Shown here: positions 9,801-58,517 of the stretch, piece by piece
Layout: each line of letters begins with the position of its first letter
Numbering within the stretch: position 1 is the first letter of the stretch
Position numbers and translations under genes: made by a program
NCBI RefSeq assembly: GCF_964204645.1
Contig: NC_134026.1
Location: forward strand, 9,807,450-9,871,449
Direction of reading: 5' to 3'
From: Tubulanus polymorphus
Taxonomy: Eukaryota; Nemertea; Palaeonemertea; Tubulaniformes; Tubulanidae
DNA length: 64,000 nt
The notes under the pieces: generated by a model
Databases searched by the model: none
What the model was told of the DNA's origin: nothing
What the model saw: only the letters and a program-made list of their open reading frames with translations

Positions 9801-12800
9801 ACATGAATCGGATAAAATTACTACACTCACATGAAACAAATTAGAACTAAAGGCTATGAATCAAAATCAGGTTTCTGATCAGTAATTAGATGGGAAAAGT
9901 ATAAGTTGTTTGCAAGCAGTAAGGTGTTGTCCACTACTACCAACTACTATCATTAACAGTAGGTGGAATTTTACTAACGATAAAATATTGGTGAATAAAA
10001 ATTATCCAAATTTAAATATGGTGCCAGTCTTGAGAAAAAAATCAAGGGATAGGCCTAAAATGCGTCTATGACTTTTGTCCAGCATCCCCAGAAAAAGGGA
10101 AGGATTCATTAGCTTCGTAACAAATACACTGTGATCAAAGGAAAGATTAAGTGAATGTTGTGAAGCACATCGGTAAGTGCTGCCATCTTCTGGACAAGCA
10201 TTATACTGGTACTGAACGCAGATAAAAATACTTCAGTCAAGTGCTCAGGAAGTCATTGCATAGTTGTCTGTTATTTGATGCAGGAGATAATTCAAGTGTA
10301 TAATTACTTGATGGTTGAACACCTGATGGTCTACATCTGATAAGCGAACAACAGAGATAGTTCAACCAGGCTAGGGAATTAATATTCCGTATTGGTGGTT
10401 TAAATGTGTTAACCGCATTTTCTACTCAAGAATGCGAATTACGAGAGTTATCAAGTGTGTGGTTGTTTTAGAAAAGCATTCTTTCTCAATTACCCGATTG
10501 ATAATTTTTTTCTGGAGTGGAATTAAACATCAAGTGGCAGTGACAGGTGTCTCTGCGCAGTGAAGAAAAAGCATGGCCAAAATTATATGAGAAGTCCAAA
10601 AATACCGTTCTATAGGGGTCACATGATTGTCATGATTATTCAAAATGGATTTACATGAAATCGAAATACAAATGTATATTAGGTCAGATTCTAATTTCGA
10701 CATACAGTAAAAAGACGATAAGACCACAGAAGCAGACCAAAGTTAAGGACAATTTTTGACAGTTTCATATTAAAAGCTAATCATAACTAAATCATATTGT
10801 GTTAAAGTCATTCAAAATGAGAAGGTTGGCATCAGTAACTAGTAGTAACAATGAGTTGGTGGAAACTGGCCCCAGATTTAGAAGTTTTTGAAAATTCCAT
10901 TCATGAAATGAGTCACGCAAGATTTCCAATCCTACAACACCAAGATTTCATGAAAAAAGCTTACATATTCTTCGAAATTTCCATTCTGATATTCCAATAG
11001 TAAGAGATGCACTTATGCCTCACTTGCCACAGTAACAGTGTCTGGCTATCCGACACAAACTTCTACTTACGAATCTTTAAAATTCCAGAAAGCACAGCGA
11101 GGAAACTCGACCCCATCAGTGATGTCATGTTTCAGCCGGAATAAAACCGGTTCTGTCAGATCCGTCTTCTTACCCACTGAGTCCGACAACGTGGCAGAGA
11201 TGATTTTTGAATTGACGATCGTGTTCGTTTTGTTGTCGCCATTTGCGTTGCTGTCAGCCGGATTCATGTATTGACCAAGATTGTCGTAAATGGCGAATAC
11301 AACTTTTGCCAAGCCTATAATTTCGGATAAACATGTTCGGTATTACAAACATGTATTTCGATCGATCGAATTCGAGTGAAGCTGATATCACCATTTTGAA
11401 CACACTGTTATAACCAGTAGTTATTTATCACGTACTACGGTACACTGCCTTTTAAACGCAGCAACTTTAAAGTCGAGTTATCGATGAAGTCAAAGTTATA
11501 TCTTACAAACTAAGGCAATTGATCTAGATATCCATTCGATAACACCAATCAATTAGCTTTAATTTCGATTCCAAATGATTTTTGAAGAATGAGGAATGAA
11601 GTAGTTTTACATTCATACGGTTGAAGAACTAGGTTAAGACGTCAGATTACACGGCTATCTCTGAGTCCCAATTGGTATTTCGAATTCAATTTACTAAGAA
11701 CAGATCGTCATTTGGATAAGTCGTCAACACATAATGATGATCATAACAATGACGACTTGAAACAAGTTGGCGGTATAGAACCACCTGCGAATACACTTGA
11801 ATTTTTTTCATCGAATGTTTACATGAAATACCCACAAAATGTTGTCTGTATGATTACTCTAATGGCATCAATGCAATTATTGAGCAATTACATTAATTAT
11901 GACAGATCAAATCATGTGCCATGTATTAATGGCTTCCTGTCGGTATATCAGGGTAAATTTCATTGAAAACGTTCGGATTAATCAGTTATCAAGGACAAGA
12001 CCTTCGGTAACATCTTTCACATTTTTGTACATATCAAACCAGTCGAATAAGTACTTCTCAGGCCAAATGACAACCACTAACCAAGCCATGATATAGGCAT
12101 TCTTCCACTGGATATCTATCCAGAACAGGATATCTATCCAGCACACTGTGATTTTGATATTCTTGGCAACACCCTTATTTTGTTGAAAAATGGCTTCACA
12201 CTATCAATTTGAAGAACTGACAATAAAGTAATTTAATGATTTAAACCTTCTAAAAACTTGGTTTGAAGAATATGTACAAACTGACCAAGTCATGACTTTG
12301 AATTGAATTTGTCACAAAAAATTACTCATCACTCATTTTCAAACTTCAAAAAAATCATGTTAATAATACCACACTCATATGAGTGAATATGATTAACTAA
12401 ACACATCACTGATACCTTGAACACTGGTCTGTTTAAGGACACTTCCCGGTATAATAATTGTGTCATCATTCAACAGTTTCGGATCAGAAGATGTTGACGG
12501 ATTTGATCTCATTGCCGATGATTCAGGAAATACAACTTGCTTAACAGCTACTGTTGTTGAAACAACCTTCACTTCAACAACTAGAAAAGATGACATCAGT
12601 GTTGTTAGTAGAACGCAAAAATAAATAAAGTTTTGAAGTATTAGGACATTGTTATGTATCATAAGTGTAGCCACCGACATGTACATGATTAAATTCATAT
12701 ACTATCTATATACATCTATATACTGTTACACAATAAGTAAAATTATGTTGCCTCAATTTAACACAATACGTATATCACTCACAGTCAGCAATCTTGCGAC

Positions 12801-15800
12801 TACTAGACTGCTAGCAGACGTAATGAGTAACGTTCAAAAGAATCTTCCTACAAATCATGCCTAATTTACTCACTTATATTCTGTTCCCTTGCCAAAATCA
12901 CTGTGGGTTTGTCAGCTGTATTTGCGACTTCGATTGCAGACGTTTCGATGCCTTGAATGACGTTCGTGGCCACCATCCTTTTTTCTTCCTCCAACTGAAT
13001 GTCTTTCCACGATTGAGCCTGTTTATCAGACAGTAAATTGTCACTCACTTTGACTATGGACTGAAATCATATGACAGAAAAAGCCTTTTAGTGAACATTA
13101 AAAGTCATCATCAGCTATGTTATCTGGTCACTTGATTCTTCCATTTTCTATATTTGAGTTCCAATTTATATCTCCAATTCCCCAATTAACTATTAAGTGC
13201 AAGTCGTCATTCGGATATAAGTCTTCAATCACGATTGGTAGAACACTATATCCGTGTTGACGCGATGAGGAGAGAATCCCACAATGATAATAAAAAGTCC
13301 GAAAATGAAACTTCGAGATAGTAGTTTATTTCAACGTATCGACTATATCCTAATAGTCATCTTCAGGAATAATGAGATACTACAGAAATTATGAGATATA
13401 TATACAATCCAGAGACAAAGAGACTAATTCAAGTAATCAGAGATGATACTAACTAAAGGAAAATGTACATTTTCCTTTAGTTTCATTTTCGGACTTTTTA
13501 TTATCATTGTGGGATTCTCTCCTCATCGCGTCAACACGGATATAGTGTTCTACCAATCGTGATCATGCTACCCACGGATCGAAATATCGTATTAAAATTC
13601 TTCTTCTTCACGTTCCCGTACCTCGTCGCTAGCTTCCGAAATTATGAGAAATGCTATATCAAATCCAGGACTGCCAAAAGTAAAGTCAAGTTCCTTCAGG
13701 AGTTTTATGCCGAAAAAGTGGTTCCGCGATCACTTTCTTGGATTTGGAAATACGACTCCAGCTCTGCATTTCCACCCGAAGCTAACAAGCAACTCAAATT
13801 CGCTATAGATCGTGCTAAGGAAGACTGTAACTATCAGTTCTACAAATTCTGTCAATCTCAAAATTATTTGAAGTCACACGTACCGGACCTATTCCTCTGG
13901 AAATCGCTCTCCACTATTGTTCAAGGCTCTGGAAAATATCATCAGCACAGAAAGTCCGTGGATCTTACCAACCAACTGAATAAACTCATTGATTCCAGCC
14001 CTTGGACTCGATTTAGCAACACCGAAAACATAGTAAATTTGTCTTCAACCACGTTATCTTCTACTCAGTGTCAACTTCTCGGCTACGGTTTGAATTTTTC
14101 TCTTCCTCATCAAGATAAACATGTTTTAGACTTTGTCACCCAATTGGAATATCGCAAATCATCTCGGAACAGTTTGGACTATAACTTTATATTCATGAAT
14201 CTACAGGCTATTTGCGATCAACTCAACAGGAACCTCTTTGAATATCTACCTCGTCGATTTCGGCTCGCCCTCCAAGAACTACGGAAGTTAAAGACTATTA
14301 AAATATCTAAGGCTGATAAAGGTGGCAAGATTGTGATTTTAGATCTGGATAATTATAATGTTAAAATGCAATCTCTCTTGGATAATCCTGGTGTTTATAA
14401 GAAACTTAAATCGAATCCTCTTCCTCGTATGCAAGCTAATTTCAACAGAAGTCTTTCGGATATTATTAAACGTTTCCCCTCCGCTAAAGAAACTCTGAAT
14501 AAGTTCCATTCACGTCTCCCCTCTTTACCATATATCTATGGATTGCCTAAAATTCATAAAGATAATGTTCCACTGCGCCCTATAGTCTCCAATTGTAATT
14601 CTCCTACATACCGGTTATCTAAATTTCTCGCGAAACAGTTATCTCCGGTGCTCGGTTCGTTCTCTCCGTCGCACCTTCGCCATAATCAACACTTACTTGA
14701 ACGTATTAAGAATATTATCCCTGGCAACGACAAATTTATATCATTTGATGTTACTTCCCTTTTTACCAATGTTCCTCTTGGACCTACTCTTGATTTCTTA
14801 AAACGCAGATTACCATCACTTAACATTAACTTCGGCATTCCTACGGATTGTATCATCGACCTTATCTCTATTTGTACGACGGACTCCTTTTTTGAATTCA
14901 ACAATTGTTTTTACGAACAGACATTCGGTATCGCTATGGGAAATCCTCTTAGTCCTATTCTAGCTAATTTATTCCTAGAACATGTTGAATCTGAAATATT
15001 GCCTCTTTACACTGATATTCACCCTAAAATCTGGCTCAGATATGTTGACGATGTTCTTGCTTTGGTTCCCTTTGACTTCAATGTTGATAACTTTCTTATA
15101 TATTTAAACTCCCTTTACCCGTCTCTGGCTTTTACGTATGAATGGGAATCTAATAGTAAAATACCTTTTCTGGATGTTTTGATTTTTAACTGTGGATCCT
15201 TTTTGAAATTCGCGGTTTATAGGAAACCTACCAACGCTGAATCCTACCTCCATTACTTCTCTTTTACTTCTCCGGATATTAAACTCGGTTTAGCTCAAGG
15301 ATTATTTCTTCGCGCTTTGAGAATTTGCGACCCCTCATTTCTACCCGATGAAATTCACCATATTAACCAATCTCTCAAAAAACTTGCCTACCCCGATTTC
15401 CTATTGAAAAAAGCTCTACTTAAAGCTCGTACTACGCATTTTAGAAATAACAACCTTAGAACTCCTACGTTGGCTACCGATAAACAGCCTATCATTGTAC
15501 CGTATGTACCTTTCCTCGAGAATTCTAAAGTTTCTCTTCGGTCACTAAATAAACAACTTATCTCTAAATACAATAATAAACTTAGTAACATATTGATTAA
15601 TAACAAACCGAAAACCGAATCCCTAAACTGTGGAATTTATAAAATACCTTGTAAAGTTTGCGACCAAGTATATATAGGAGAAACAGGTCGGAATCTTAAT
15701 CAACGCATAAAAGAGCATAAATTAGATGTAAAAAACTTTAAACCTGAAAGCGGAGTTGCTAGTCATGTTTTTCAGACTTCACACAATTTTGATTTTGCTA

Positions 15801-18800
15801 ATGCTGAATTAATTTACCCTTGCAGCGATAAAACTAGAAGACATATTTTGGAATCTGCATTAATTATTGAAAATTCGAACAACCTTGTAAACCTTAACAA
15901 TGGTTTTTCACCCCATAATAAACTTATATCAAAATTCCTCTGTAAACTGGTTAAACTCAACACTTGATTTCCCCTTTGATTATTTGTTATTTGTTCTCTC
16001 ATCAATTTCGTCTCTGACTTAACTTGTATTCACCTTTGTTTTAATTTAAGTGCCCCCTAGTTTGTCTTTCTTTTTACTACTGACTTTAAGTTTCATTTAT
16101 ATTCATACTCACTATTGTTGTTTATAATCACCCCTTAGTTTGCTTCCCTTTAATCTATTTTAGCGTGTAACTGTTTCTACGTTTCCTTTAGTTAGTATCA
16201 TCTCTGATTACTTGAATTAGTCTCTTTGTCTCTGGATTGTATATATATATCTCATAATTTCTGTAGTATCTCATTATTCCTGAAGATGACTATTAGGATA
16301 TAGTCGAAACGTTGAAATAAACTACTATCTCGAAGTTTCATTTTCGGACTTTTTATTATCATTGTGGGATTCTCTCCTCATAAGTCTTCAATACATTGAT
16401 GGTCCAGACTATACACATTTTATTCTCTAGTTTAAGCATCGTGTGAAATATGACATTGGAAATGCCAAGAAGAGCTCAAATATAGCAAAAATCACTGAGT
16501 GAATGCCGTAAAAAGCCACATGTACTAAGGGGTACATAAAAATTCAAAATCACGAATCCTTACAATATCATCAATACGATTTAGAAGACACGTGATATTT
16601 CACCTCAATTCATCATTGTTAATTCATCACTTTGAATTGATATTGATCGGGGAACTGTGGAAATGAGTTCTTTAAGTTTTTATTTTTACCTCACATTCAC
16701 CATAATCACTTTAAATTCTTAATTCTAATTTAGCGTTTATCTATCACTATGTATAACGATTATGAGTTAACAATATTAAGAAAGGTTTATCATGAAGGAG
16801 AAAATGACAAGCCTGAAAACGGGTTGTCGACAGTCGCCCGAACAAAGTTTAGACGGCAATGAATGAAATGGGATGAAACGATATTGAAATCGAAGTTAAG
16901 CAAGACTTTCAGAATAAAATGTTCCCTACGGTATTTCTTATCATTCTTTCAAATCTATTTTGGTTAGTCATATCAGAACTGTGTTAACGAGGTCCACCAG
17001 TACGCGGATCAAATCAATTTTATATGTGGATATGAAAACATCTTCGCGAGAAGGCCGTGTTATTTCTGTGAGCAATCGACGTTTTTAACCCAATGTTCGA
17101 TAATTATGTCTTTATTGTACCCTATCTAATCATCACTACCGGGTAGATGAAAAAGACAGCAAGTCTGCCCTTTCACAGTGCACGAGATTCCTATGCCATA
17201 CTGGTTTGAGGAAATGCCACCCGCTTTCCAAACCACATTGTTGTGTTTCGAGGAAAATTTATTAATTATCCCGGGATTAAAGTTGATCCGATCTGCATGG
17301 TGCATAGTTCAGGAAAAGCTAAACAAAGCTATAATACATTATGAGCAATCATTCCTGGCTTCATCACAAAAGCCCCAATTTAACAAATATTTTCGCTTTA
17401 TGAAGCCATTATGTACATACGCAACATTTTGCATGCCGACAGATCACTGACATTCAGTTATTTTGACAAACATGTTATTTGCCAATGTAATATCGAAAAG
17501 CATAACTTTCTGTCTATGCCTTGCCTAGAACACAGGGCAAATCCAGGAAGAAAGACACTCTAAATATTTGGATGGATATATGAAAGCTGTGGGTACTGGA
17601 GTGTGTAATGGGTAGTGAAGCGTGATCTGTGTGCATTTGTGGCCAGCACACGAATCACATTGTTGGTCCAGGACTCGCGAGATTTTCAACAACACGGAAG
17701 TAACGTGTAATAAATGATGACTTGAATTGCATGACTACCTACCACCCCTCATTATTGTTGGAAAACTAAATGTTCGGCACTGACTAAAAATTTGTAATAA
17801 CATTTTAGAAATGGCCAGAATTTTAACTTAGGTTCTATCTCATTTTTATTTTACAATTGCGATTGGTATAATTTTTTTTAAACGGCCGTTAAGGCTTCAT
17901 GTTTTGTCTGCAATTCACTGCAAATAGTTACGCAACTACGCACATTTCAGTGTTTTTTGCAGCTGTACACTCAATCGGCACCGTTCGTGACTAGCTTCAG
18001 TGCGGAATTATCATTAATTAACATCGCCATATCACATCATCAACTTATATTGTGCCTTTAAACCCTAAAAGCCGAAATAATTGAAATGCACACACGATTT
18101 CTATCATTGAAAATTGAGAGAGTGGCCATGTTTGTGTTTGCTGCTTCGCGTAATCCCGCGCGGTGGTGCAACCACGCGGAGTGGGGCCGATACGTCCAGA
18201 ATGTTTTCGAAGGGAAAACATAACTGCAAAGGAAAGAAACCTTAATTCCAGCAAAATAAGTACCAATTTCATGTACTCGGGTGCATTGTCAGAGCATTTT
18301 TCATCTTCCCAAAATAATTCTTAACTGATTCCTGCTAGCATGCACAGGTAGCCAGTGCGACTTTCATGTATTTTTAAGTGGACTTTTTATAACGGTCAAT
18401 TGTGAGCGCAGAGCTCTGAATGAAGGATCTAGTAGACCTCCATCACTAGCCGAGGTTTACACTACCACTATTTAAACTGGCCTAAAGTGACCCATACCTG
18501 GAACGGGCCAGAACGCTACAGATAGTTATCACTGGCCCCAAAATATATCGACTGACCTAGTATTTTACCCTGAATGAAATTTGTATCTTAATGATACGTT
18601 TTTGTGAATACCCAGCTGTTATTTACTATTTGATGTTTTACAACTACCTGGACAGCAAACTTTTCCAAATTCTAGGACATTTTTAAAACAATTAGAACTG
18701 ATACATCGTGTTTAGCAGGTATGTGCCTAAACAGTATTTAAGATAGGCCTATATGAATCTGCAATACATTAATTCTAGGCAATATAGAAATACTTAAAAT

Positions 18801-21800
18801 TGAAAACTAAATTAAATCAGCTTGATGATGATTTAGTGATCAGTTTATTTCAAAAGAATTCATACCGCAGAGATTTAAATTACAAGTTTCTGTCCACATA
18901 CAAAACTACTGGTCCATTCTAAATATTAGTACGGACTAGGTCTTAAATTAGGTCAGTTGGTCCTTTCTAAATTGGAACATTTTAGATGACAGTTTGAATG
19001 CTACGACCTTAGTTCAACTCTATTCCTCAGAGAAAATGCATGCAAAAACCTACCTCAGTTATTTCTTCAGCCACTTTTAATCTATTCGATCTTGATTCTA
19101 ATTTGTATGATGACTGTTCTTTTAAAACGTTCACCATATCTTTCAGGACTCGTGAAGTTGCAGCTAAATCACCGCCGGACATGTCCATTCGGTTTGTTTT
19201 ATTTCCTAATTCCTTGGCGATATTAGCCACAGGTTCGCCATTTTCAATCTACATATTAAAAGAGACCAAGTTAATTTCTACAGGACATTGGGGCATGTAA
19301 AATTTGGATTAGACATTTGCTGCAATTCGAGACTATGCAGTGGTTGACAACCGTGCCACGGTATATACCACATATGCAGGTATTCGCACAGTATCGCCAC
19401 ATAGTGAATCAGGCCTACAGCCAGGATTTTTCAAAGGCAAATTCTACACATGACACTAAACAGAAATTTCCTAGCATGCCCTTTGATCATCACACATTTG
19501 TGGCTTTTTCAACAAGACGTCACAGGCCTTTTCCTAAAATTTAAAAAAAAGGCAAGTGGAATAATTTATGGGTTCCTGTGAATCCCTCAAACCCCTTGGC
19601 AATCCAGGCCTACTGGGCAAGGTTCCTTCGGACTTCGTCATGGCTATAGGACAGGTATAGGATCAAAATGTAAATCGGCTCCTTCATGGCTGAGTGTTAA
19701 TATCAGTAGCATTCTTATGATAATATAATCAAAGATCATGAGAGCTGGTGTGAAGAATTCCATAGGTTGATTACGGAATCCACGTTGAAAGGAATATTTC
19801 ATGCGGAGGAATGTTATGATCTTGAATCTTCCGAGTGCCTCGAATATCTGAGTTTATCCTAGTCATCAGGTACCAGTGCTGGTTAAGAAAAATATTTCTT
19901 CGAGCACAGTAGGAAACATTCTATGGTCTTAATCACTGTAGACAAGTGCATAGGTCTAGTGAAAAGGCCCAGTTTCAATGTCCAGAGTTTGATGACATTT
20001 TAATAGGCTTAGATATTACAACTGGATTTAATAAATCAGATCAGTTATAACACAAGCCAGTCTAATCGAGGCTTGAACACACACAAGTTGATGCTCAGAA
20101 ATGGCTTAAACTTAAAACCGATCTTAGGCAATTTTGCTGCATTTAACATTTGAACAACTTAAGACTATTCTTTAGATTCAAGACAAAATTGTGACTGAAA
20201 TCTTAAATAGTCTTACAGGAACAAATAGATCTTAAAATGGGCTTCGTCTGGATTCTGCACAGTAATCTAACCTCCCCAACACATTAACGGTAGCATTCAT
20301 ATATTATCAAACTACATGTACACTTCTGGTATACATAAAAGCCATTACACCAAATGTAGTTCGGATTTCTTAACATTCAACGAAAAAGTTCTAAACTATA
20401 CAAAACCTGCTGAGAAAGAAACTCGCAAAAATGTTCAGTTAAAAAAAGTATTTTTTACCATTGAATTGATTTCTTTAACCCACTGTGAAGTACATTTACT
20501 CAAATCTGGATTCTCACTCCATTTTACCGGATGTTCTTTGCATGTATGATGTGCTTCCCCTGCAATTGATAAATGAAAATGCATGGAGTGCATAAATATT
20601 TTAAACATCTCCATATTCTTATATTCTCTTAACAATTTGACTACTACTGATATATGGTCAATTGATCACATAGTAGGCGAATTCCTAGATAAAACTACCA
20701 ATCGCTTTCATGTAATAGGATTCAAATTGAAGCTGTGAGCAAGGCCCAATTAAGTTAATGACTATGTTTCTATGAGCCATACATCTACTGGTATATACCT
20801 GTGAATCCAACAGGACAGTCATGTGCAGCAGTGTGTCCCGCTCTGGTCATCGGCCATGTGATACCACGCGCAGTAACTTCACGGCAGTATTGTGCGACGG
20901 GTTTTGGATTTACAGGTGTCGTTTTTGCAGTAGTTGTTCGAGATTCTGTAGTAGTGGTTGTTTGCGTAGATTTTGTAGTTGCAACAGTAGTAGATTCTAA
21001 AACCACAAAGGAAACATTTCAAATAATCAAATAGTGACTTCTGGTTTCAATCGTTAACTTTTCATGAAATGGCCTTCTGGGGGGAACTGCGTTTACAAAT
21101 ATAAAGCCGTTGAAGAGAAAATCAAATTGATCAGTGGAAATGAAATATGAACCATTTACATTAGTAAAATAATCCAAGGAAACTAAATGGAAAAAAAACT
21201 AAAATGGTAGTTCAGAGCTCCATGCTGAGTGCATCTGTCACCTTCAGTGACATGGTTACACTAATTATGACTCATGTAATAACGTGGAATTCCAAGCCTA
21301 CTATTTGTCACCGTGTCAATGAATTAAGCTAGACAGTGGTGCCATCTACGCAAATCTACACTTAAGGCAAAGCACTCTCTATATGAACAACCCACGCAAT
21401 ATTTCTTAATATCAACGAGACAACCATGTGGACTTTGTCAAACAAATTGATTTCGAGATATTTGATATACGATTGCCAGCATAAGAACTGCTTTAATCAC
21501 GTACTAACAATAATGACTGATTGGTATAATAGTGAAGCTGGCTGGTGATCACGTAGATATACATGTACAGGAAATTCTAATCAAGATGATTATAGCTCTC
21601 CCGCGCACATAAATAAACCACACCTACGAGCAACATGACACATTCCATTCTTTATCTAGGATGGTGCGCTGGTTAGAGCAGTTATCCACCGGTGCAACCC
21701 TCCAAATACATTATGTAGAGCCAATTACATAATGTGAAATTTAAACAAAATCTTAAATAACAAATTTACATCTTGAGAGTACATCAATTCATGTCCTTCA

Positions 21801-27800: not shown

Positions 27801-30800
27801 TAACAATATTTAAAGTGATCTTTGTTTGGTTACCAAATAAAATACGCTTCATATGTATAATGGTACACACCACCAAATATAACTAAGGAGTTACGCACTA
27901 TGCATTATGAAAATAAGTTCAATTTCGAGGTTACAAAATTTCATGTAACTTTCCATAATTGAGGATTTTTTAAAGCTATCCTATGATGTTTTCACACAAT
28001 TGCTTGAGACGCAGACATTTGAGCTAGAAAAGTTTGCGCTGAACTTCTGCCACTTTATCAGGTGGCGAGGAAGCCGTTCTGAATATCGAGACACAACAAT
28101 CAATACAAAACTCTCCAGTATGTTTCTTTACCAACACAAGGAGCACAAAAGAAAGGGTCTACAGACCCCATTTTGACTGATTATCCCAAGAAAAAGTTTG
28201 TAAACTTAACTGGTCACCTGCACCTTTCTCATACACAGGTATCAATCTAAGGCCTGGGACCAACCCTTCAGATCTCACCATTGCATTAATGGGAATCACT
28301 CAAAAATTGTGGTAATGAATTCATCCCGTCAAGAGGGTGCGAATATAGGTAAGGCATAACCCATTTGCAGACAATTGCAAGGGTTCGGGAGACCTCCAAA
28401 GATGCATTTACCAAAAACATGTTTAAGTGAATCCATCATATAAAAAGTCACTGGAATGTGTGGGACAATTTTCTTTGACGATAAATAGTGTAACTTTGGA
28501 TTTTCTGGGTATGGGCCTGCAATGTCTGGTGTTATAGTCCGTCTGTTAAAAAAATGTTCGAGGTAAGGTAGGATCTCGAACATAGGTGAGAATAGAAGAT
28601 TGTGATAGGCCTAAATATCCAATGTGTCTGAAGCGGTGGGTCCACGCTGAAGATTGATACCAGTCCTGCTTTTATGCCAGGGAGAGGTAGAGATAAGGAA
28701 TATTGTGCCACAGCCTACCACCTCCCAGAACATTGCAGATTACAACAAGACAATGATTAGCTTTATGTTAAGGAAATCAAAAACATACCTGATCGGCACT
28801 GGTAATGCACCTCTAAGTATTTATAAGTATCTGAACATGGATCTCTAAATATGTCATTGTTCACTTTAAAAGTACAAGTCGGTTTTCCAGCACATCTGTA
28901 GCATGGATAAAAAGAACAGATTTCAAAATTAGGAGAGCATGCATTGGAGTGGCGGGCAGGCGTGCGTTGGTTTTCTCCACGCCTTGCGACGCGCCAACGG
29001 AAAATGACCATTGGCGCCTCTCTCTTTGCTTTGTCGAGATATCTTCCACAGAACACGAATAGCTTGAATGTTCGAGAGTGAAAAGTACTGCACAATACCG
29101 CCCTGCCCTCTCAGCATATTTATGTACTACATGTTCTCTCCCCTCAGATAACTGTGTAAATACACAATTTTTAAAAAAGACGAACCTTAGCTCATGTTGG
29201 TAACATATGTTCAGACATATAAACCAAACAGATACCACATAAATTTTGAGTTTATTGACATCCTACAAATAGATTTGGGAGCCAGTTTGAGAACTTAAAA
29301 CATGAGAGCCCCACGATTAATTTCAATGAGGAACATTTCATTCAAAATGAAAGAAACGGTTCAAATTAAACAGTAATCCAACAGTAAACCCTAAGTAACA
29401 TCTTTGACATTTCTGTAAACATTTAACAAATCAAATATTCAACATCGAGTATTAACAAACTAATGATATCCAGCCATATATATATTGTACAAATATTGTT
29501 GAAATAATGATGTTGTAATGATGTGTCCTTGTTGTAAATTTTATATGTGGCAAATAAATATATTATTATGAAATAGAGACCACCCCCCCCCCCCCCAGTT
29601 ACCATCTTTGTGTATTTTAGATTAAGACACAATCTATAGAATTAAACATGTAAAGTAATCAATTCTATTCTCATGACTCCAAAATTGGGCTTTTTTATTT
29701 GTATTGTATTAATTTTATAGAATCACTAATTTGTTAAGCACAGTCATAACAAATTAGATAGGGCCTAAGTCTCAAATCAGACTAAAAAATTGGGCCCCAC
29801 ACAGGTGAAACCAAGTTAAGCGAATGTTGATCCTTCAAAACACTCTTACAACTAAAGACTACCACAGAGCAAGCAAACTCGGCTATAGCCCTCCAGTTTA
29901 ACAGGTTCAGGGGCAGCCAGGGGTTTTTCTAGACAGTGCCTTTAAGGGCCCCTTTTTCGCGCTGACAAGGTAACCGTCGAAAAGATACTAAAAGATGAGG
30001 GCAGCGTAAAAATCTATTTGGCACCTTCTGAGGGCTTCCTAGGATCTGTTGATAATATAGCATTTTCTTTAGGCTATATATGATGTACCATTCAATTCTA
30101 GATGCAATAAAGGGCAGTCTTGATGGACCCCAGTCTGTCAATCTCTTTGACTGTAATTTCACTCAAAAATTCCACTATAATCGTGTTCTGTCAAAAATAT
30201 TTTCTCGCTACAGGTCAAACTAAGAGGCGATGATCATCCTATGCAGATCGATTAGTAGTTAAATAAGGGGAAGGGTTGATCTAATCATCAAACACACGCG
30301 CGACAATTTAGCCTAGATTCAGATTATGTAGTAACAACATGCTGAAATTATAAATCATTAGTTAACAAATGCAATTATAATATATGCATGGAAAACAATT
30401 TGTGGTTAGTTTTTTTTTAAAACCCCATGCAATTCGAATATAACTTCTACGAGTCATATAGTTGGTTGCATGCTTTGGTGCGTGTCAAAACGTAACATGA
30501 GAATAAAAATATTAAGAACGCAGAAATTCATAATATGATAAAACCAGTATCTTATTTAAACAGGTAACAAATCTAAAATCAAGCCTGCCACATTCCAATT
30601 CCAAGTAGAAACATTTCGACATACACATTTCGCTCGATGGCCCGGCACACTTTCTTCAATATTCAGCCCTATTATTTCATTGCAGCATTTTGAGATATAA
30701 ATCAACCCGGCTTTGTAAGTTTTAGAAATCTTTCAGCGAAAATGACTTCCGTCGGCTTATGCAACAGTCGAAAACATGTTTACCACAGAAAACTGTTTTT

Positions 30801-33800
30801 GTGTTTGCATTCGTCATAAGAAACAACTAGCAATGATGTTTCTCTTGTTATAGACGAAAGAAAACATCGTTGATTTCATTCACTTTAGCCAAGATTTTCA
30901 GAATTTCGATTCTTATTACCACTATTCTCAAGTCAGGTCATGTCGCACTACGGAGTAGGGGGGATTTTCAAATAACATCGTTGGGATTTAACGCATGCGG
31001 ACTCTGGAACACCTTACCTCCGGGCCGCAAACACTGATATTCAACCTCGAGATACTTATAAGTATCGTCACACGGTTCACCAAATAAATCGTTGTCAGCG
31101 GGAATTTCGCAAAAAGTCTTATCTGAGCACCTACGGAGAGGTTCAGATAAGTCAGTATCAGGAGGCTGCGAATTTTGATATCGAAACTAGGGACTTCGCG
31201 AGCAATTTTAAACCAGAGGACGGGTAGTAATACATGATTCATTAAGACCTGTCTAATCCAAGAAATAGTTTAAAATGTTCATCTTTTCTTAACAATATTT
31301 TTTCAAACGATTTTGAAATCAAAATAGTCTAAAACTGGGCAGGTAGTGGGTGGATAGCCTATCATACAGGTAAACCAAAGTTTCAAAACTTTTTGAAAGC
31401 GGTTGACTCCCTGTAGATTTAAAATAGCTATTCACAACAGTGAGAAGAAATTATTTCTTTTTCAATTAAAAACATAAAAATTGCTTTTCTCTTTAATTCC
31501 AGTAGATAAATAAGGCCTATGGATACTTTCGAATTAATCGAATAATTCTCATAAAAAATGATTGGTTGAACACAAGTACAAATATGATAAAGTTATACAA
31601 GGGATATTGGGTCCAGATTTTTCACCATTTTCTCATACATCATAGTAGGGCCTACATGTATTTTATATGGTTTTGAAATGAATACCTGCACTGGCACTTT
31701 CTAGCGAGTGCTATTTGGCTGGAATGTTTACATTACATTCCGCAATACAGTGTCTAGAAGCAGTGAGTCTAATAAATTTCATATCAGCAAGGTTTCGTTT
31801 CTATTTCAAATGAAAAATGTTGAAAACACACGGCCCAGATACTAGCGAAGTATATAGGCCCCTAACTGTATAGTTTAGGCTATAGGTAAGGACAAGGGAA
31901 GTGGACCAGACTAAAAATTGGTTAAGCCAACCTAAGAACTTAGGACAAGTATCAAGATTTATGACACTTCAAGTACTTAGTCTTGACACTGTGGGACTAT
32001 ACCACGTTTTTGCCGAACTCCATATTTTTGTACCTTGAAGAAGGCCTTTCTCTGAAAAAAGTTACACCCGGTATGCAATAATACTTCATGGAAAACCTTG
32101 TGAATAAGATGTCATATAAAAAAGCTGACGATGCTGTAGTAGTATTTTTCAAGGGGAGAGGGGAGAGGAAAAGCATCGAAGGATTATATTGAAGACAAGA
32201 CCTCGGTGGAATAGTTGAAATTTACAACGGATACCGGCATAATAAATATCAGGGATATTAGATATTCAACAAAACCCACTACCCCAGGTACTCAGCATTC
32301 GAGTTAGATAATCAATCATAACATTATTAAAAATTAAACGATTATAATTGCATTAAATACGAAGTGAAATATATAATTGTGAAATAACTGTCGTTATCAG
32401 AACGATGATTACAATTAAACAGTCAGTCATAAACGATGAATGCTGGCAGTTTGAAAAGAACTCAATTAAAATGCATGTGATAACTTTGTGATGATGAAAT
32501 TGGCGATTAACGCCGTGAATTTTCTATTCAGCCATAATTCAAAACTTAAATTGAAATTGCTTAACCCTCATGTGATATTAACCATTTAGGATAGAAATCA
32601 AATTTCATCAATGTTAGCAAGAGCCTCGGGACTGCGAATAGGCCCATAGGAAAATTCCCCAATGAAACAGTCCTTTTTTAATGATTTACACGATCAATAT
32701 GAAGGTTGAAAGTTGAATGTTGAAAGGGGATTCCTTGACGTGGGTTCGAACCCCACACCCTACCTCACTCATGGCTGCCGGCGATTACTTTATCTAGGTC
32801 AAATTCCCCCCAAGCTATGGTACTTATAGGCCTAGCTAAGATTTCCCTGATCAACGTACGATATTGAATTAAATTGGGCCTAAACGTTGAAAATTAAGCT
32901 TAAAATGTTCAGGTCAATCAGCCGCTATCCATCACAATAACTCATTACTTTAGGTCTAGGCCTACAATGAAATTATCAGCATTTACAGAACATAGAGGGG
33001 TAGTAGATTTAGTTAACAAGGGCTGATGATTCTCATAGGGGCAGAAATGAATGACAGGAGTGCGGCCGCCACTTTAAAACCCCTTGCCAAGAACACCGAG
33101 AAAACATCTGAATGACTGGCGTTTTAAAGATTATAGGCCTACAAGAAACCAATACATCCCAAATACGGTATGAAGTCCTAGGCCCAATATAAAGCATTAA
33201 GCATTAACGTTTCTTTGCCCCTACCTGGAATGAACAACGTTCAGTGAACTATGAGACATGCACATAGTGCTCCAGCCTTCAGTTATTCCACGCGGGTTGC
33301 ATATTGCTAAAGTAAAGCGTCCGTAGACGGCCCGTTCGATGTGTATAATCCCGCTGTCTTTGCGGCAGTCCAATGTTAATACGTCACGTTCACACACGTA
33401 CACCTCGGTACTTTCACCTGGATAAAAAAAGGTATCGCATTAAGTTGAGTAAAATAATGATAGTAATTGACAATTATATAAATCAGCAGTCTTCAAATGT
33501 GTTTGTTCTAGTGGTATCACGATCCAAGGGAAAGGCGCAGGGTGCATCAAGTTGCCCTGAAATTTCACCGGAAAATGAATATTAAGCTGCTAGGCCTACC
33601 CACAAAAGTGTAAATTTATCTCTAAGCTTGTTCTCTGTATTGAGTGATGTTTTCTGATGAGCTTTCTTTCACGGTGCTTTTAATTTTGCCATATTTTGGG
33701 GGTGCACCGCAACGAGTCAGACCCTAGATCCGGCCCTGTATTCAGTCATCTCCCCTGAGATGTAACACCTAAGCTGCTACTAGGTGCTCAGCAATCCATT

Positions 33801-34155
33801 CAGGCCAGGAACCCACAGGCTCAGAGGTGGAGAGAGGCAATGAGGATAAGCGTGTTGCTCAGGAACATTACAGTGCTGTTCAAGCATCCATGACCTGGTA
33901 GCCCATAGGCCTCCCTAGTCAAATGCTCTAGGCCTATAACCACTGGCTCCACTGAATAAAACACTCCTATCCGACAAGAATTTACGAAGACAGAGGCCTG
34001 AAATCGAAACCTTGGCGGTACAACTGGCCACCTTAAGTCCGAAAACGAAACTGCTTACCTCTTTTAAATCTTCCACGATTGATGAAATTTCTTAGTTTAC
34101 CACCAGTGACTAATGATATTAATAAACAGCTAACCAACAATATTATTCCCTTCAT
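862..34155 (-). CDS. ADGRL (latrophilin-like): Latrophilin/CIRL-type adhesion GPCR (3' end outside window)
   Basis: Exons on the minus strand (high to low): 34155-34059, 33417-33225, then either 31130-31018 or 28895-28789, 20996-20799, 20559-20459, 19248-19054, 13060-12874, 12580-12416, 11314-11071, 9553-9430, 9211-9108, 8870-8768, 8381-8228, 7931-7865, 7320-7254, 6723-6620, 1030-862. Every junction is GT-AG and every phase agrees. The base form reaches 793 aa at the last donor (860-861). Domain order: signal peptide, rhamnose-binding-type lectin (RBL), Ser/Thr-rich linker, HRM, GAIN with GPS, seven TM helices. This is the invertebrate latrophilin plan without olfactomedin. Latrophilins are self-cleaving plasma-membrane receptors that bind adhesion partners and signal through G proteins. 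The first exon starts with ATG and a hydrophobic leader. The tail exons lie left of the window. The identity rests on recognised motifs ([29 protein letters not shown]). Confidence 0.93.
1856..2076. mobile_element. Short TIR element of the GGCGGATC family
   Basis: Terminal inverted repeats CAGGGGCAGATCCTGA at the left and its imperfect complement ending GGGATCTGCCCCTG at the right; 221 bp, no ORF. The CAGGGG ends resemble hAT-type MITEs, but I do not see a clean 8-bp target duplication. Located in the receptor TM5-TM6 intron. Confidence 0.6.
4117..4188 (-). other. Candidate ICL3 cassette exon c (72 nt)
   Basis: Acceptor GCATGTAG, donor GTAAGA, phase 2 at both ends, 24 codons, no stop. It encodes [19 protein letters not shown] and LQQT, again basic and Ser-rich. 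It is the third exon of this type in the same intron. Frame is kept in any combination with cassettes a and b. Confidence 0.58.
5017..5151 (-). other. Candidate ICL3 cassette exon b (135 nt)
   Basis: Acceptor ATTGACAG preceded by a T-rich tract, donor GTAGGC, phase 2 at both ends, 45 codons, no stop. It is clearly more GC-rich than the surrounding intron. It encodes a Ser- and Arg/Lys-rich segment including [10 protein letters not shown] and [11 protein letters not shown], with basophilic-kinase-like sites. It keeps frame whether included or skipped. Confidence 0.65.
6070..6153 (-). other. Candidate ICL3 cassette exon a (84 nt)
   Basis: Acceptor TTTGATAG, donor GTAAGC, phase 2 at both ends, 28 codons, no stop. 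The reading is Ser/Thr/Gln-rich: [14 protein letters not shown] then [14 protein letters not shown]. If included it would extend intracellular loop 3 between TM5 (exon ending 6620) and TM6 (exon starting 1030). The upstream pyrimidine tract is modest, so this is the least certain of the three cassettes. Confidence 0.5.
9430..13060 (-). other. Latrophilin exons 7-10: rest of GAIN domain and GPS cleavage site
   Basis: Exons 13060-12874, 12580-12416, 11314-11071 and 9553-9430. Exon 7 holds [15 protein letters not shown], matching the family's NLL-SW-DM helix. Exon 9 holds [26 protein letters not shown] and CAFWNF. Exon 10 holds HWSTEGC, CEC and HLTNFAVLM. The four GPS cysteines and the autoproteolysis tripeptide HLT are all present, so cleavage is expected between Leu524 and Thr525, leaving TNFAVLM as the tethered agonist. 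Confidence 0.9.
13229..13480. repeat. Inverted 5' terminal structure of the PLE with snap-back palindrome
   Basis: The left part is the reverse complement of the element's own leader (~13527-13562) and of its 3' end (~16187-16379). The turn is a perfect 28-bp palindrome at 13453-13480, centred on AATGTACATT. This head-to-head junction is the usual by-product of PLE reverse transcription. Confidence 0.85.
13565..15967 (+). CDS. Penelope-type reverse transcriptase / GIY-YIG endonuclease
   Basis: An 800-aa uninterrupted ORF; the first ATG is at 13565. An N-terminal region is followed by [14 protein letters not shown] and [18 protein letters not shown], both PLE hallmarks. RT motif A is [13 protein letters not shown] (~residue 390), motif [18 protein letters not shown], and catalytic motif C RYVDD (~residue 493). 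The C-terminal endonuclease starts at [11 protein letters not shown] (~residue 688), with YIGETGR and the later Glu in ILESALI. All catalytic residues I can check are present, so the protein may be functional. It would copy its own RNA at a nick made by the endonuclease. It does not belong to the host receptor. Confidence 0.96.
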   Translation: MLPTDRNIVLKFFFFTFPYLVASFRNYEKCYIKSRTAKSKVKFLQEFYAEKVVPRSLSWIWKYDSSSAFPPEANKQLKFAIDRAKEDCNYQFYKFCQSQNYLKSHVPDLFLWKSLSTIVQGSGKYHQHRKSVDLTNQLNKLIDSSPWTRFSNTENIVNLSSTTLSSTQCQLLGYGLNFSLPHQDKHVLDFVTQLEYRKSSRNSLDYNFIFMNLQAICDQLNRNLFEYLPRRFRLALQELRKLKTIKISKADKGGKIVILDLDNYNVKMQSLLDNPGVYKKLKSNPLPRMQANFNRSLSDIIKRFPSAKETLNKFHSRLPSLPYIYGLPKIHKDNVPLRPIVSNCNSPTYRLSKFLAKQLSPVLGSFSPSHLRHNQHLLERIKNIIPGNDKFISFDVTSLFTNVPLGPTLDFLKRRLPSLNINFGIPTDCIIDLISICTTDSFFEFNNCFYEQTFGIAMGNPLSPILANLFLEHVESEILPLYTDIHPKIWLRYVDDVLALVPFDFNVDNFLIYLNSLYPSLAFTYEWESNSKIPFLDVLIFNCGSFLKFAVYRKPTNAESYLHYFSFTSPDIKLGLAQGLFLRALRICDPSFLPDEIHHINQSLKKLAYPDFLLKKALLKARTTHFRNNNLRTPTLATDKQPIIVPYVPFLENSKVSLRSLNKQLISKYNNKLSNILINNKPKTESLNCGIYKIPCKVCDQVYIGETGRNLNQRIKEHKLDVKNFKPESGVASHVFQTSHNFDFANAELIYPCSDKTRRHILESALIIENSNNLVNLNNGFSPHNKLISKFLCKLVKLNT
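16180..16379 (+). repeat. 3' terminal repeat of the PLE with hammerhead-like hairpin
   Basis: At 16280-16310 there is a CTGAAGA box, then a hairpin with stem GACTAT/ATAGTC, then GAAACG. Penelope elements are known to carry hammerhead ribozyme motifs in their terminal repeats. Here one extra T sits between the first box and stem II, and the inverted 5' copy reads GATAC in place of GAAAC. I call it hammerhead-like only. The end, CTCTCCTC, abuts the target-site duplication. Confidence 0.55.
16392..17625. other. Intronic sequence without recognisable genes
   Basis: Between the Penelope insertion and the second copy of the 0.58 kb repeat. A 90-codon open frame at 17178-17450 shows no domain, and I see no splice sites consistent with receptor phases. 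Confidence 0.4.
17626..18199 (+). repeat. Dispersed ~0.58 kb repeat, copy 2
   Basis: Same sequence and orientation as bases 1-587, beginning TCTGTGTGCATTTGTGG and ending at GATACGTCCAG. Located in the receptor intron between exons 6 and 7, about 1.2 kb from the Penelope insertion. I see no clear target-site duplication. Confidence 0.8.
19054..19248 (-). other. Latrophilin exon 6: GAIN subdomain A, helical part
   Basis: 65 codons, phase 0 to 0, beginning [18 protein letters not shown] and containing [18 protein letters not shown]. This corresponds to the helical region of latrophilin GAIN domains that follows the HRM domain. The acceptor is ATGTAG and the donor GTAGGT. The intron that follows is 6 kb and carries the Penelope element and a copy of the 0.58 kb repeat. 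Confidence 0.8.
20459..20996 (-). other. Latrophilin exons 4-5: Thr-rich stalk and HRM domain
   Basis: Exon 4 (20996-20799) begins with a run of Thr/Ser such as [17 protein letters not shown], a likely O-glycosylated stalk, then [13 protein letters not shown] and DCPVGFTG. Exon 5 (20559-20459) adds [16 protein letters not shown] and TSQWV. Together they give the four cysteines and the W-P / W / P-D-L-S-x-C-x-S-x-W pattern of a hormone-receptor (HRM) domain. The phase-1 junction creates one Gly codon. Confidence 0.88.
21000..24180. other. Receptor intron sequence, no gene recognised
   Basis: AT-rich sequence between receptor exon 4 and the weak candidate exon near 24.3 kb. Short open frames have no domain or phase-compatible splice sites. 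The rest of this intron, to 28788, holds the MITE and the fold-back element. Confidence 0.4.
24188..24358 (-). other. Weak candidate exon in the stalk region of the receptor
   Basis: An open minus-strand frame runs from acceptor CCCTCTAG to an in-frame TAG at about 24146. A GTGATG donor at 24187 would give 171 nt, phase 1 to 1, which could sit between the lectin and stalk exons. The reading has four cysteines (GVSCLES, GLCSS, RYCHQ and near the end) but I recognise no domain. It could be an alternative exon, an alternative terminal exon or chance. Confidence 0.2.
24766..24904. mobile_element. Short palindromic MITE
   Basis: 139 bp with terminal inverted repeats GGGCCGGTTCCATAG, flanked by a CAG trinucleotide on both sides. 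The interior is a string of CTTAAGAC/GTCTTAAG inverted units and encodes nothing. It sits in a receptor intron. Confidence 0.75.
25486..26995. mobile_element. Fold-back type element with GC-rich iterated ends
   Basis: The ends are inverted copies of one another, about 250 bp each. From outside in they hold GGGTCTGAAACACGGCC, iterated CCGGGGCC / CCGCGGCC units with ACACGTCT spacers, then an AT-rich part shared with the other arm (TTTAAATGGTCAAATGAAAG against its complement near 26849-26872, and CCAAACCAGATGCCTATCT near 25699). The ~1 kb middle has no recognisable ORF. The several short open frames across the GC-rich ends are composition artefacts. Confidence 0.7.
28789..28895 (-). other. Latrophilin alternative exon 3b: second half of RBL domain
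   Basis: An open stretch of 107 nt between acceptor CTACAG and donor GTATGT, entering in phase 2 and leaving in phase 1. It encodes RCAGKPTC, then RDPC and [12 protein letters not shown]. All four cysteines match exon 3a, but the region between the first two cysteines and PC differs in most positions (FRDPC in place of FGEPC). It joins to exon 4 through a split Glu codon, as does 3a. Confidence 0.84.
29581..29598. repeat. Poly-C tract
   Basis: A homopolymer run of C interrupted only at its start, in the receptor intron between alternative exons 3a and 3b. It explains the poly-Gly open frame on the minus strand. Confidence 0.8.
31018..31130 (-). other. Latrophilin alternative exon 3a: second half of RBL domain
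   Basis: An open stretch of 113 nt between acceptor CTCTCCGTAG and donor GTAAGG. It enters in phase 2 and leaves in phase 1. It encodes RCSDKTFC, then FGEPC and [12 protein letters not shown], the standard second half of a galactose/rhamnose-binding lectin domain with all four expected cysteines. It is an alternative version of the exon at 28789-28895, which shares DTYKYLEV and the cysteine spacing but little else. It lies closer to exon 2. Confidence 0.82.
33225..33417 (-). other. Latrophilin exon 2: first half of the RBL lectin domain
   Basis: The acceptor CCAG precedes 33417, and the exon enters in phase 1 and leaves in phase 2. The reading contains the RBL signature: a Cys-Glu-Arg start, LTLDC, a G-x-I-H-I stretch, then A-x-YGR and two further cysteines. 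It ends at the point where the second half-domain (Arg-Cys...) must join. Two different downstream exons fit this end. Confidence 0.87.
34059..34155 (-). other. Latrophilin exon 1: start codon and signal peptide
   Basis: ATG at 34155-34153 opens 32 codons ending in phase 1 at a GTAAGC donor. The first ~18 residues ([18 protein letters not shown]) form a basic residue plus hydrophobic core and small residues, as in a secretory signal peptide. The phase-1 end joins exactly to the lectin exon at 33417. Any 5' UTR exon further right is not identifiable. Confidence 0.85.
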
Positions 34156-35885: not shown

Positions 35886-38800
35886 TCATTTCACTGTAAT
35901 GCTGACAATTCTAACATCGTCATAAGGTTTATCTGTCTTAGGGTTTGTTTTCAAATTTCCGATGTTCTGTACAATTTCCATGCCTTTAACAACGCGGCCA
36001 AAAACTGTATGCTTGTTGTCCAACCAAGGCTAAAACAAAGAGAAATCCATTCAGAATTTGATGAACCAAGAGAATACATTTATTAGTAAGGCTATGGGTA
36101 TGGAATTTTTAAATTCATCAAATGAATTACGCTAAAACATGAAAAGGAAAAAGCTAGCTGAAAACTGCTCTTGAAAACCAGCCTTAAAACATATTTTGAA
36201 AACAGATACTAGTACCGAGTTTCATCAGGTAAGCATGTACAATATCAATGCATCACAATTTCATAATCTTAGAGGCTCTAATTAGGGTACGGATATCAAT
36301 TGTATGTGGTACAGACAGGATTTTTGTACAATGGGAATACAGTCAACTGGGAATTAAATCACTGTGCAAATGGGATTTGTCAAGCAACTGTAATCCTTTG
36401 CAAATCGAGTTGGGTTATGAAATATGTATCAGTACCAATATAAATGAACAAACTGTATATAATTGGATTCAATCTACGCACAGAAGAACGAACAAGCGAA
36501 TAATGATTTGTTTAAGTCTCCCTGGGCTAAAATAAACGATATAAAACTGCGAGAAAGATCAATAAAAAAACTTTAAAATTTTTTGTCTTCATCTAAAAAA
36601 CATTATCGTAAAGACTGAAAATTCTGAATCCTTAATTTCATCTTTCTTTTTTATTGTAGCAATTATTTGCGACATTATAACAAATTCTACCTCTTCACAT
36701 TTGAATAGATTGAGATGCATTATCCCTACGATCATTTTATAGGATAAGCTGTGTTTCTTTTCTAAGTCGTGGAAAATCTCTAGTCCCATATTAACTGAAT
36801 TACACACCGTTAACTGTTTGAAGTATTTTTTTCTTATCCACAGACTTTCAGTTTTGCCAAATCAGGTTGAAAAGAGCATTGACTATTGCTGTTATCATGC
36901 ATTACTTTCATTCATTGAAATATATCTCTGATACAAATTCCTTACCTAATATCCAAGAAAAAAGGGCGGATCTAGGAATTTGTGAAATTTAGAAAAGGGG
37001 GTGCGCATTTCTGAGATACATGTATCCCTAAAGTTTTGTAAGAGCGGTAAATAAAGTATAAAGTGTGTTGTAAAGGAAAAATGTTTCAAAAAGGTCAAAA
37101 TTTTAAAAGAATCTTTTCTCAATTTTGAAAAAAAAATTAAGGACACGTGGGGGAGCGCTCGACCCTAGCGCACCCATCTAAATCCGCCCCTGAGAAATCA
37201 TAGATAACCTATGTTTATATGACTACTTTACTTACTGTAGGTGCTACTGTGATAAAAAACTGAGAACCGTTAGTATTTGGCCCAGCATTGGCCATACTTA
37301 ACGTGTAAGGTCTATCGTGTCGCAAAGATGGATGGAATTCATCTTCAAATTCGCCGCCCCATATGCTCTCACCTCCAGTACCATTTCCTAAAATATCAAG
37401 AAGTACATAAAATGTAAAAATACATAAGATCCACAATTCACGCATCGAAATAAAGAAGTACTGGTATGAATTATATCTAAACATTCTGACGCTTTTAGAT
37501 TGTGCCCTTCTGGAAGACAGAATATTCTTCTCAATATATTGCTGCCATTAATGAGACTTAAGAATAGGCAGAAACGTTCTAAAAAAGAAAGCTTCCACAA
37601 GGGCACAAAAATGGTATGGTAACATCGGGACTGATTGGGCAGCATCCTCGCTTGCCAGTGGTCCGGTATCGCTCCCGCACTCTCTTCCACCAGCCCCCTG
37701 GCCCCACGATGCGTGATTTCATTACTGGCGCTGTTGCGCATGACGTCAATTATCGATTTGCGAAATACTTCCTTGTTCGGTAAAACGTTCGCTGATTGGC
37801 CCATTTAACGGGAAAACCAACAGAAGCCTAACGTTGTTTGTTACAGACTCTGTGATTGGCCCGACCTGATTCTGGTCGGCTAGTAACGACTCCAACAACT
37901 CGTGAGGTCAAGGGGTTCGTGGAACGCCTTTAGCTTAGTGGGTTCGAATCCCTTGACGGGTGAGGATGAGTGGGCAGATCCCATCTTCCCATGCATGGGT
38001 TTGAATCTGATGATTCGGAACCTCAACCGCAATACGAACCATTACCTTTGGAAAGTTGGATTCAAACCTGGTTTACACATATGTCATTGAGTTTGGAGGA
38101 CAGGGCTCAAACCTGCTTCAAATGAAGACATAGCAACATAAAAGTCGATTACAATAATAGATTATTAACAACGTACCAAATGGGTCACCAGTTTGCACCA
38201 TAAATCCTTTAATCACACGATGAAAGATGTGGTTATTGTAGTATCCATTTCTACTGTGCACACAGAAGTTTTCTATGCTCCGAGGACACCTAAATATACA
38301 AATGCCGTGCATGCCGTTGTAACTATGCTGTTGAAACCAGAATACTTCTTGGTTTGTTGTTTAAATTTCAGAGACCACAAAATCTAAGTAATTTAGGAAT
38401 ACAATCCAACTGGTTCATGAGAAGTCTATGGCATACATCCTAAGAACAAGCAGACCCTTAGCTATGTCAGTAACTTGTAAACTTCAAACAATCTAAGCTC
38501 CATATGGATAGTTTTAGGTTTATACAGCACAAACTTGAAAAAGAGACACAAATGTGATTGCAGGATTATTTGCATTGTTTTTGATTCTGCAGTGTAATTG
38601 GTGCTGAAGAGATTCTTAACTCCAAAATAAGAGTCAAATTTAAGTCATTAAGAAACTTGATTCTGATTATGGAAGAAAATACAGATTCGGCAGTATGTTT
38701 GTGTTAGCTATCATCAGATAGATCATACAGTATAAGCCTAGAGATAGAATTAAGGTACTTACTCTTTGGCAAATAATTTACAGTGAATGTCACCCAACGA

Positions 38801-50744: not shown

Positions 50745-52398
50745 ATGTCGAAAGTTTCCATGAAATATCTCAAGATGCTGATGTTTCTTTTACAAGTTCT
50801 GAATTCGGGTGTTACAGCAAGACACGTCTTGTTGTCGAAGGAAAATGAATGGCTGCTATCACAAAATGAGACGCCGAGATCTTTCGCGTCTTTCAATTCG
50901 TCAACAGATCCATGGCGGTTGCGACAACCCAACAATGGCCCGAAAATTTCAACTTTCGTTATCGGACTCAATAATATTCTTAATACAGCCGCACAGGAAC
51001 CGCAATTATTCAGTGGGCAACCGTACACGTGGAATACGGCACGCACAAATATTGGTGAGATAGAAATGGTCACTGGCTTTTACCACCGTAAGTTTGATAT
51101 ACCGTCAAATTTAGATTTATGTAGACTTCTTGTTAAATATTAATGTCACGAATGTTGATGTGTATAATGTGTATTTATGTATGGCAATGGGACAGAAATG
51201 TTTGCTTAAATCCGATTCAATATGTTCGTTTGACGTCCTCCATTACGCATTTAAGATCACATGCATTTTGGATTTTTACAAAGCGACGTCACCAATTGGA
51301 CTAGCAATTATTTTATTATTTGATTTGATTTTGAAAAAAATCGCAACGCCGTTCACTTGATATGTATGCGCATAATGCAATTTATAGTTCACATCACAGT
51401 TTTTCCGTATGTTGTAGTCATAGAATCTGTTTATGTAGGCAATTCGCCACATTGAACATTGTTGTCCCTACTAGAATTGACCGCCATTGCTGTTTTTCTT
51501 ATATTCAGAAAGAAGTGCGCATATATCAGAAATAAATGCGTACACGCTTAAAACGTATTTATTTTCTATTTGATCCCTAGGCGAAAGAAAATTAGTCATA
51601 TTCAACGTGAGAAGTGTAGGAAATTCGAATATGGGAAAGTATGTTGTTCTCTCTCGAAAGACGACCGAAAAAATAACACATCGAACAGTGTGTCATGCCA
51701 AAATATACACAGGACAAGGTCGACACATGAAGCTGATTGGGTCAGAAAAATACCAGCTAAACCCGCACATTATTTACGATGTGATTAAAATAAATGGCCG
51801 GCTTAGGCACCATCAACACCATCCACATTTGCTCTTCTTAAAATTGATGTGTGGAAAGAAAAAAACTTTCCCTAAAACTATTTATTTTTTTGGAAACGAT
51901 GGAAACGCACCGTTGCTCGCGTTTGAAAAAGACATCAAATTATCGGGCGATTTGATCAAGCATTTGTCGAAAGAAAACTGGTCACTGCTGATTCCGCCGA
52001 ATGTAAGCGAAAAGAGACGAGGCAAGCGAAGTATATTTGGGCTGTCATCCCGCAACGAACGTTCCGATGACGATATGTATTGCAAGCTGGAAAAATGGAC
52101 GGTCGATACTCGTGAGCAGTGGGGAGATATAATTGCCGCTAGCCCACCAGTCGTTGAAACGAATTATTGCGGTGGCACTTGTGCCGCTATTAAAGAAAAC
52201 TCACGTGCGGCTACAAACCACGCTCTTACTAGACATCATTTCAAGGAGGTCAACGAAACCGAATACAGCTTTTTGCCAGCCCCGCAATGCGCTCCGTACG
52301 AAATGTTAGACGTTTCAATTGCGCTAATGTTCGTCAACGGCACTGTCATTGTACAATCATTTCGGGGTCTTTCTACAAGAAGTTGCAAATGCCAATGA
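50745..52398 (+). CDS. Divergent TGF-beta superfamily ligand, tandem copy 1
   Basis: Two exons, 50745-51087 and 51581-52398, phase-1 junction (GTAAGT donor, CCCTAG acceptor), 386 aa. A signal peptide (MKYLKMLMFLLQVLNSGVTA) is followed by a propeptide and a furin site, KRRGKR|S. The mature part is ~122 aa: CKLEKW, NYCGGTC, TNHAL, PQCAP and CKC end. It follows the cystine-knot pattern of secreted TGF-beta ligands, but the usual CC is QC, leaving six cysteines. The missing one normally forms the inter-chain disulfide; GDF9, BMP15, GDF3 and Lefty also lack it. The helix region is full length, unlike Lefty, so I leave the subfamily open. An in-frame ATG at 50760 is an alternative start. Confidence 0.9.

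Positions 52399-58216: not shown

Positions 58217-58517
<301 letters not shown>

Follow-up and report, generated by a model that had tools for sequence, protein, structure and literature searches.

Two candidate mutually exclusive exons encode alternative halves of the RBL domain in a nemertean latrophilin gene

Introduction

Can a single latrophilin gene, which encodes a cell-contact receptor, exchange one half of its N-terminal RBL domain by alternative splicing? This question is raised by a stretch of 64,000 nucleotides from Tubulanus polymorphus (the window), in which a sequence-only reading had found two exons, here termed 3A and 3B, that both encode the second half of the latrophilin lectin domain. 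Latrophilin splicing as described in the accessible parts of the literature comprises linker inserts, tails, start sites, 7TM-less forms and N-terminus-only forms (PMC6629964, PMC13197933, PMC6667449, PMC11540312); PMC10830413 also belongs to this literature, and PMC5548486, in the part available, only names a fly latrophilin splice variant. The sequence-only reading knew of no latrophilin with switchable RBL halves, and no alternative RBL halves are found among the matches listed from the open-access literature either, an absence that carries little weight, as the search covered open-access articles only.

Results

A latrophilin gene on the minus strand

The minus strand of the window carries a gene that extends from approximately 34.2 kb down to at least 0.86 kb. 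With a human ADGRL3 sequence as query, tblastn yields collinear matches to both RBL halves, HormR, GAIN, GPS and the TM segments, and Pfam profiles match the lectin (SUEL_Lectin) and 7tm_2 parts. On the basis of these matches the gene is a latrophilin (ADGRL/CIRL), with an RBL domain at the N-terminus followed by HormR, GAIN, GPS and 7TM parts. Its candidate exon 1 (34059-34155), which is predicted to encode a signal peptide and to end in phase 1 (donor score 6.2), stems from a search between 33.4 and 50 kb for start exons that encode a hydrophobic stretch and have a phase-1 donor, the other two of the three candidates being one cyclophilin-like frame. Exon 2 (33225-33417, AG checked at 33417) encodes the N-terminal RBL half common to both forms, and exon 4 (20799-20996), entered in phase 1, encodes a Thr-rich linker and the start of HormR. 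The remaining receptor (859-20559) was assigned by homology with the same ADGRL3 query and comprises the end of HormR (20515), GAIN segments (19248, 13063 and 11315), GPS (9543), TM1 (9199), TM2 (8872), TM3 (8381), TM4 (7959), TM5 (7319) and TM6-7 (1038-859), all on the minus strand. The splice chain from GAIN to 7TM is partly resolved, an acceptor above the score threshold being missing in 6 of 13 segments and a donor in 4 of 13.

Whole-genome searches ran over the assembly that holds the window (267.8 Mb, 77 contigs). An olfactomedin domain is absent from the latrophilin gene; the genome has a single OLF match, on contig C5. As the accessible part of PMC6422961 describes non-chordate latrophilins as lacking this domain, its absence does not exclude membership in the family. 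The TM6-7 query has at least 15 further places in the genome among the matches listed, the best with 50% on contig C3, and among these matches the window is the only locus with both RBL and TM6-7, no listed RBL place lying near a listed TM6-7 place by coordinates. An Rfam scan of the window at the gathering threshold gave no match.

The window holds several other features. A cyclophilin-type isomerase exon (37215-37547, minus strand) is located upstream of the latrophilin gene. An 828-residue open frame with reverse transcriptase and GIY-YIG parts (13481-15967, plus strand), presumably Penelope-like, lies antisense in the latrophilin intron between two GAIN segments. Further plus-strand frames are two adjoining, mutually diverged TGF-beta family ligand frames (51574-52398 and 53444-54259, Pfam TGF_beta) and two Pfam HMG_box halves (59712-60071 and 62097-63041) that look like two exons of one gene, which we take to be a SOX gene. 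A long TA repeat (58139-58584) gives rise to spurious Ile-Tyr open frames on both strands.

Two exons for the C-terminal RBL half

Both exons are on the minus strand, 3A at 31018-31130 (113 nt) and 3B at 28789-28895 (107 nt). Splice-site and frame inspection bore out their coordinates, splice dinucleotides and phases as claimed in the sequence-only reading: both have AG/GT boundaries (GT-AG ends), are entered in phase 2 and left in phase 1, and have lengths that are 2 mod 3. Each carries, as had also been claimed, the RBL cysteines, four in number, and DTYKYLEV. The claim that they start with Arg-Cys holds in part, i.e. Arg-Cys is restored upon splicing, but the Arg codon is formed at the junction, with exon 2 ending in phase 2 within this codon (AG) and 3A or 3B completing it with G or A.

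Five exon joins were tested. The frame is open in 2-A-4 and 2-B-4, in line with the earlier claim that either exon connects exon 2 (33225) to exon 4 (20996) in frame. Splicing of 3A to 3B shifts the frame, again as anticipated, and 2-A-B-4 stops 11 residues past LRPG, after a complete RBL domain. If both exons are skipped (2-4) the frame is shifted and a stop is located inside exon 4; the join 2-B-A-4, which runs against the genomic order, also has a broken frame. Because A+B or neither breaks the frame, only one of the two exons can be read in frame at once.

The pair might still not be strictly exclusive, A-B joining being a regulated third outcome that lowers the amount of receptor via decay or yields a secreted RBL-only protein. 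Exon 2 followed by A and B does encode a complete RBL domain with 11 further residues and a stop, N-terminus-only transcripts account for about 1.5% of the variants of C. elegans lat-1 according to the available part of PMC11540312, and in human clusters, where exons are not divisible by three in 377 of 629 cases, joining reads occur in 83 of these 377 frame-incompatible clusters (PMC5740500, available part). This has to be weighed against the position of the stop: with later exon junctions far downstream of it, decay of an A+B mRNA would be expected, and we regard the regulated third outcome as unlikely. Still less likely, to our mind, is a three-state switch with an acidic-face form A, a basic-face form B and A+B as a single RBL domain that is secreted and competes in free form, with partners reassigned by the swap of charge; if true, such a three-state exon choice would give cells of this animal alternative contact identities, a role that vertebrates spread over several latrophilin genes.

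The similarity of the two exons is not due to chance. A 3A query retrieves 3B in the window (E 4e-13, 58.8% over 34 residues), and a 3B query retrieves 3A in the whole-genome search (E 7.9e-9). The Pfam SUEL_Lectin profile scores the two exons with 39.2 and 38.5 bits at a cut-off of 31.4, and both spliced domains align over almost their full length with 12 distinct solved RBL sequences each (E values up to 0.001), the matches of both spliced forms including mouse and human latrophilins and C. elegans LAT-1. When 15 gene segments, taking in A and B and leaving out candidate exon 1 and the segment at 6723, were queried back against the window, 3A/3B was the sole mutual match, the best other off-target match having an E value of 0.011 and containing a stop. 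The region 28600-33500 holds only one direct repeat longer than 16 nt, inside the two exons. Exon 3A also contains a 16-nt perfect palindrome, GATACTTATAAGTATC (31051-31066, minus strand), that is largely common to 3B and that conserved coding for DTYKYL may explain.

One copy could instead form part of a second RBL domain or of a separately initiated transcript, as a gene with two RBL domains is present elsewhere in the genome (contig C1). Yet a second N-half, i.e. a copy of exon 2, was found neither by tblastn of the window, where the next best match has an E value of 0.31 and contains a stop, nor among the matches listed for this region in the genome search. Moreover, entry in phase 2 requires the AG from an upstream exon. 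We consider this reading highly improbable and retain 3A and 3B as alternatives for the same half.

Age and selection of the two copies

In 19 of the 35 aligned codons A and B encode the identical residue, 12 of these 19 via different codons. Nei-Gojobori comparison over the 35 codons gives a pS of 1.01, which is saturated, and a pN of 0.30, with pS - pN above zero in all of 2000 bootstrap draws. Neutral simulations at d = 3 (n = 5000) resulted in at most 8 of 35 identities and kept the open frame in 18.8%. Saturated silent together with low replacement divergence implies that selection has maintained both copies for a long time; judged from this comparison, both exon copies are old and under purifying selection, and the divergence pattern argues against a recent copy, one in neutral decay or an assembly duplicate.

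Scored with weight tables, the donors of A and B reach 6.7 and 5.7 (exons 1, 2 and 4: 2.1-6.2), and their acceptors 2.6 and 4.3 (others: 3.2 and 8.0), A being the weakest of the four acceptors scored. The modest acceptor of A would fit with one of the copies being an unused relic, a reading that we nevertheless hold to be very unlikely, as it is opposed by the divergence pattern and as neither copy has lost its open frame, any of its four cysteines or a splice site.

Identity to the RBL halves of seven PDB chains is alike for the two exons (A 14-18 of 33, B 16-19 of 33) and thus does not single out either as the older copy. The genome contains further RBL matches at C2:6294184, C1:26201976 and C8:8772642. 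A pair of RBL matches on contig C1 was considered as the same duplication and rejected; it is one gene with two RBL domains, which we presume to be EVA-1-like. On contig C11 an RBL C-half exon (1347162-1347257, plus strand) has a phase 2 Arg-Cys junction after AG and terminates with a stop of its own, which would fit an old Arg-Cys intron position in RBL genes. In a rough, hand-made alignment A and B share 12 and 14 of 31 residues with the C11 half and 7 and 6 of 33 with the EVA-1-like half. A pattern search for relatives returned 17 matches in viral_contigs and 51 in genome_contigs, neither being an animal collection, and none was confirmed.

Changes in the RBL domain

In the numbering of mouse Lphn1, derived by hand from the cysteine numbers in the available part of PMC2430599 and alignment, the variable exon begins with C96 and also encodes C102, C115 and C128. 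A and B differ at positions 97-98, 100-101, 103-107, 110, 112-113, 116, 125 and 129-130, and their net charge is -6 and +1, respectively. Thus, the switch alters strand β4, the start of loop 2 and the net charge, and two differently charged surfaces are probably available to the receptor, one at a time, as deduced from the encoded residues.

The sequence-only reading had placed the variable part where RBL domains contact ligands, a claim that does not agree with the contacts described so far. Loop 2 comprises residues 106-120, and rhamnose is bound by E42, Y63, G117 and K120 (PMC2430599, available part). The equivalents of E42 and Y63 are encoded by the common exon 2, and A and B share T118, Y119 and K120 as well as an Asp at position 117. 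Joint mutation of L39, P51, D54, D67 and D72 in Lphn1 is described to abolish teneurin binding (PMC6978801, available part); all these residues precede R95/C96 and are thus within the part encoded by exon 2, to which the ADGRL3 contacts named in the accessible part of PMC7195488 also map. With the teneurin contacts in exon 2 and the sugar contacts unchanged, the contacts known so far lie outside what varies between A and B, and the proposed switch of partners is weakened. As C83-C115 bridges two loops, an indirect effect on the teneurin side would be possible. The partners of invertebrate latrophilins are different or unsettled, e.g. Toll-8 is listed as a partner of fly Cirl and LAG-2 as one of worm LAT-1 (PMC13197933, available part). 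A single Tox-GHH match in the genome, at 4768926 on contig C5, marks a teneurin candidate.

Candidate signals for the exon choice

Steric hindrance is unlikely to set the choice because the exons are 2.1 kb apart. For docking-site/selector-type RNA pairing between the introns, the energies are no stronger than those of shuffles: the best duplexes are inside the range of 12 shuffles each, the strongest pairing, which flanks exon B, has -39.8 kcal/mol versus a shuffled minimum of -40.2, and local fold z-scores are -1.11 around B and 0.22 around A.

Candidate Rbfox-type sites on the minus strand are a GCAUG 20 nt after 3A (30994-30998) and a UGCAUG 48 nt before 3B (28938-28943), both motifs having been chosen after inspection. 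For these post hoc motifs the A-B intron contains five GCAUG versus 1.9 expected (at least five in 22 of 500 shuffles) and two UGCAUG versus 0.8 expected (at least two in 94 of 500), and GCAUG lies in the first as well as the last 100 nt of this intron, a placement that 2 of 500 shuffles reproduce. As the motif was picked after looking, the sites serve as a lead only. According to the Rbfox position rule, such a placement would favour A over B.

Discussion

Our analysis shows that 3A and 3B are real, and they probably form a functional pair of mutually exclusive exons. We consider it likely that one internal latrophilin exon was duplicated in tandem long ago and that the two copies are used in a mutually exclusive manner, which would result in two receptors from one gene that differ in preference or affinity at the RBL face. 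In the mechanism proposed the spliceosome joins the common exon 2 to either 3A or 3B and then to exon 4, and the choice would rewrite β4, the beginning of loop 2 and the charge of the domain surface, leaving the cysteines and the sugar-contact residues untouched. We infer that both forms are expressed and exclude each other in the cell. At the least, the reading frame would enforce exclusion, since mRNAs with A+B or with neither exon would have an early stop and would be expected to be removed by nonsense-mediated decay, and splicing factors on the 2.1-kb A-B intron may set the choice, Rbfox-type sites being one candidate.

By analogy, the closest design is found in FGFR1-3, where, like here, the exon for the N-half of one ligand-side domain (IgIII) is common and two mutually exclusive exons (IIIb/IIIc) encode the C-half (PMC3238399, available part). 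The systems differ in that FGFR1-3 have an Ig domain in a kinase receptor and a proven ligand change, compared with a possible one here, and there is no homology between them. Human mutually exclusive tandem exons are likewise neighbouring homologues with equal phases that are frame-incompatible when joined and often ancient, as described in the accessible parts of PMC5740500 and PMC9741552, in neither of which the main text names latrophilin/ADGRL. Dscam1 also uses mutually exclusive tandem exons, but in large arrays versus the two copies here. Within the family itself, known latrophilin splicing, e.g. the SSA linker insert, which alters teneurin affinity, tail variants, 7TM-less Cirl and N-terminus-only LAT-1 (PMC6629964, PMC13197933, PMC11540312, available parts), changes linker, tail or protein length, whereas none of the variants found swaps an RBL half. 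The pair would belong to a known kind; for latrophilins, we have not found it described in the open-access literature.

According to the available part of PMC6422961, it is not settled whether the RBL domain of invertebrate latrophilins serves to bind a conserved partner. Natural isoforms with one RBL half as their sole difference would be clean tools, as a partner that discriminates A from B must sense the variable half. Finally, the pair would show an animal that diversifies its latrophilin by splicing, as compared to the several latrophilin genes in vertebrates.
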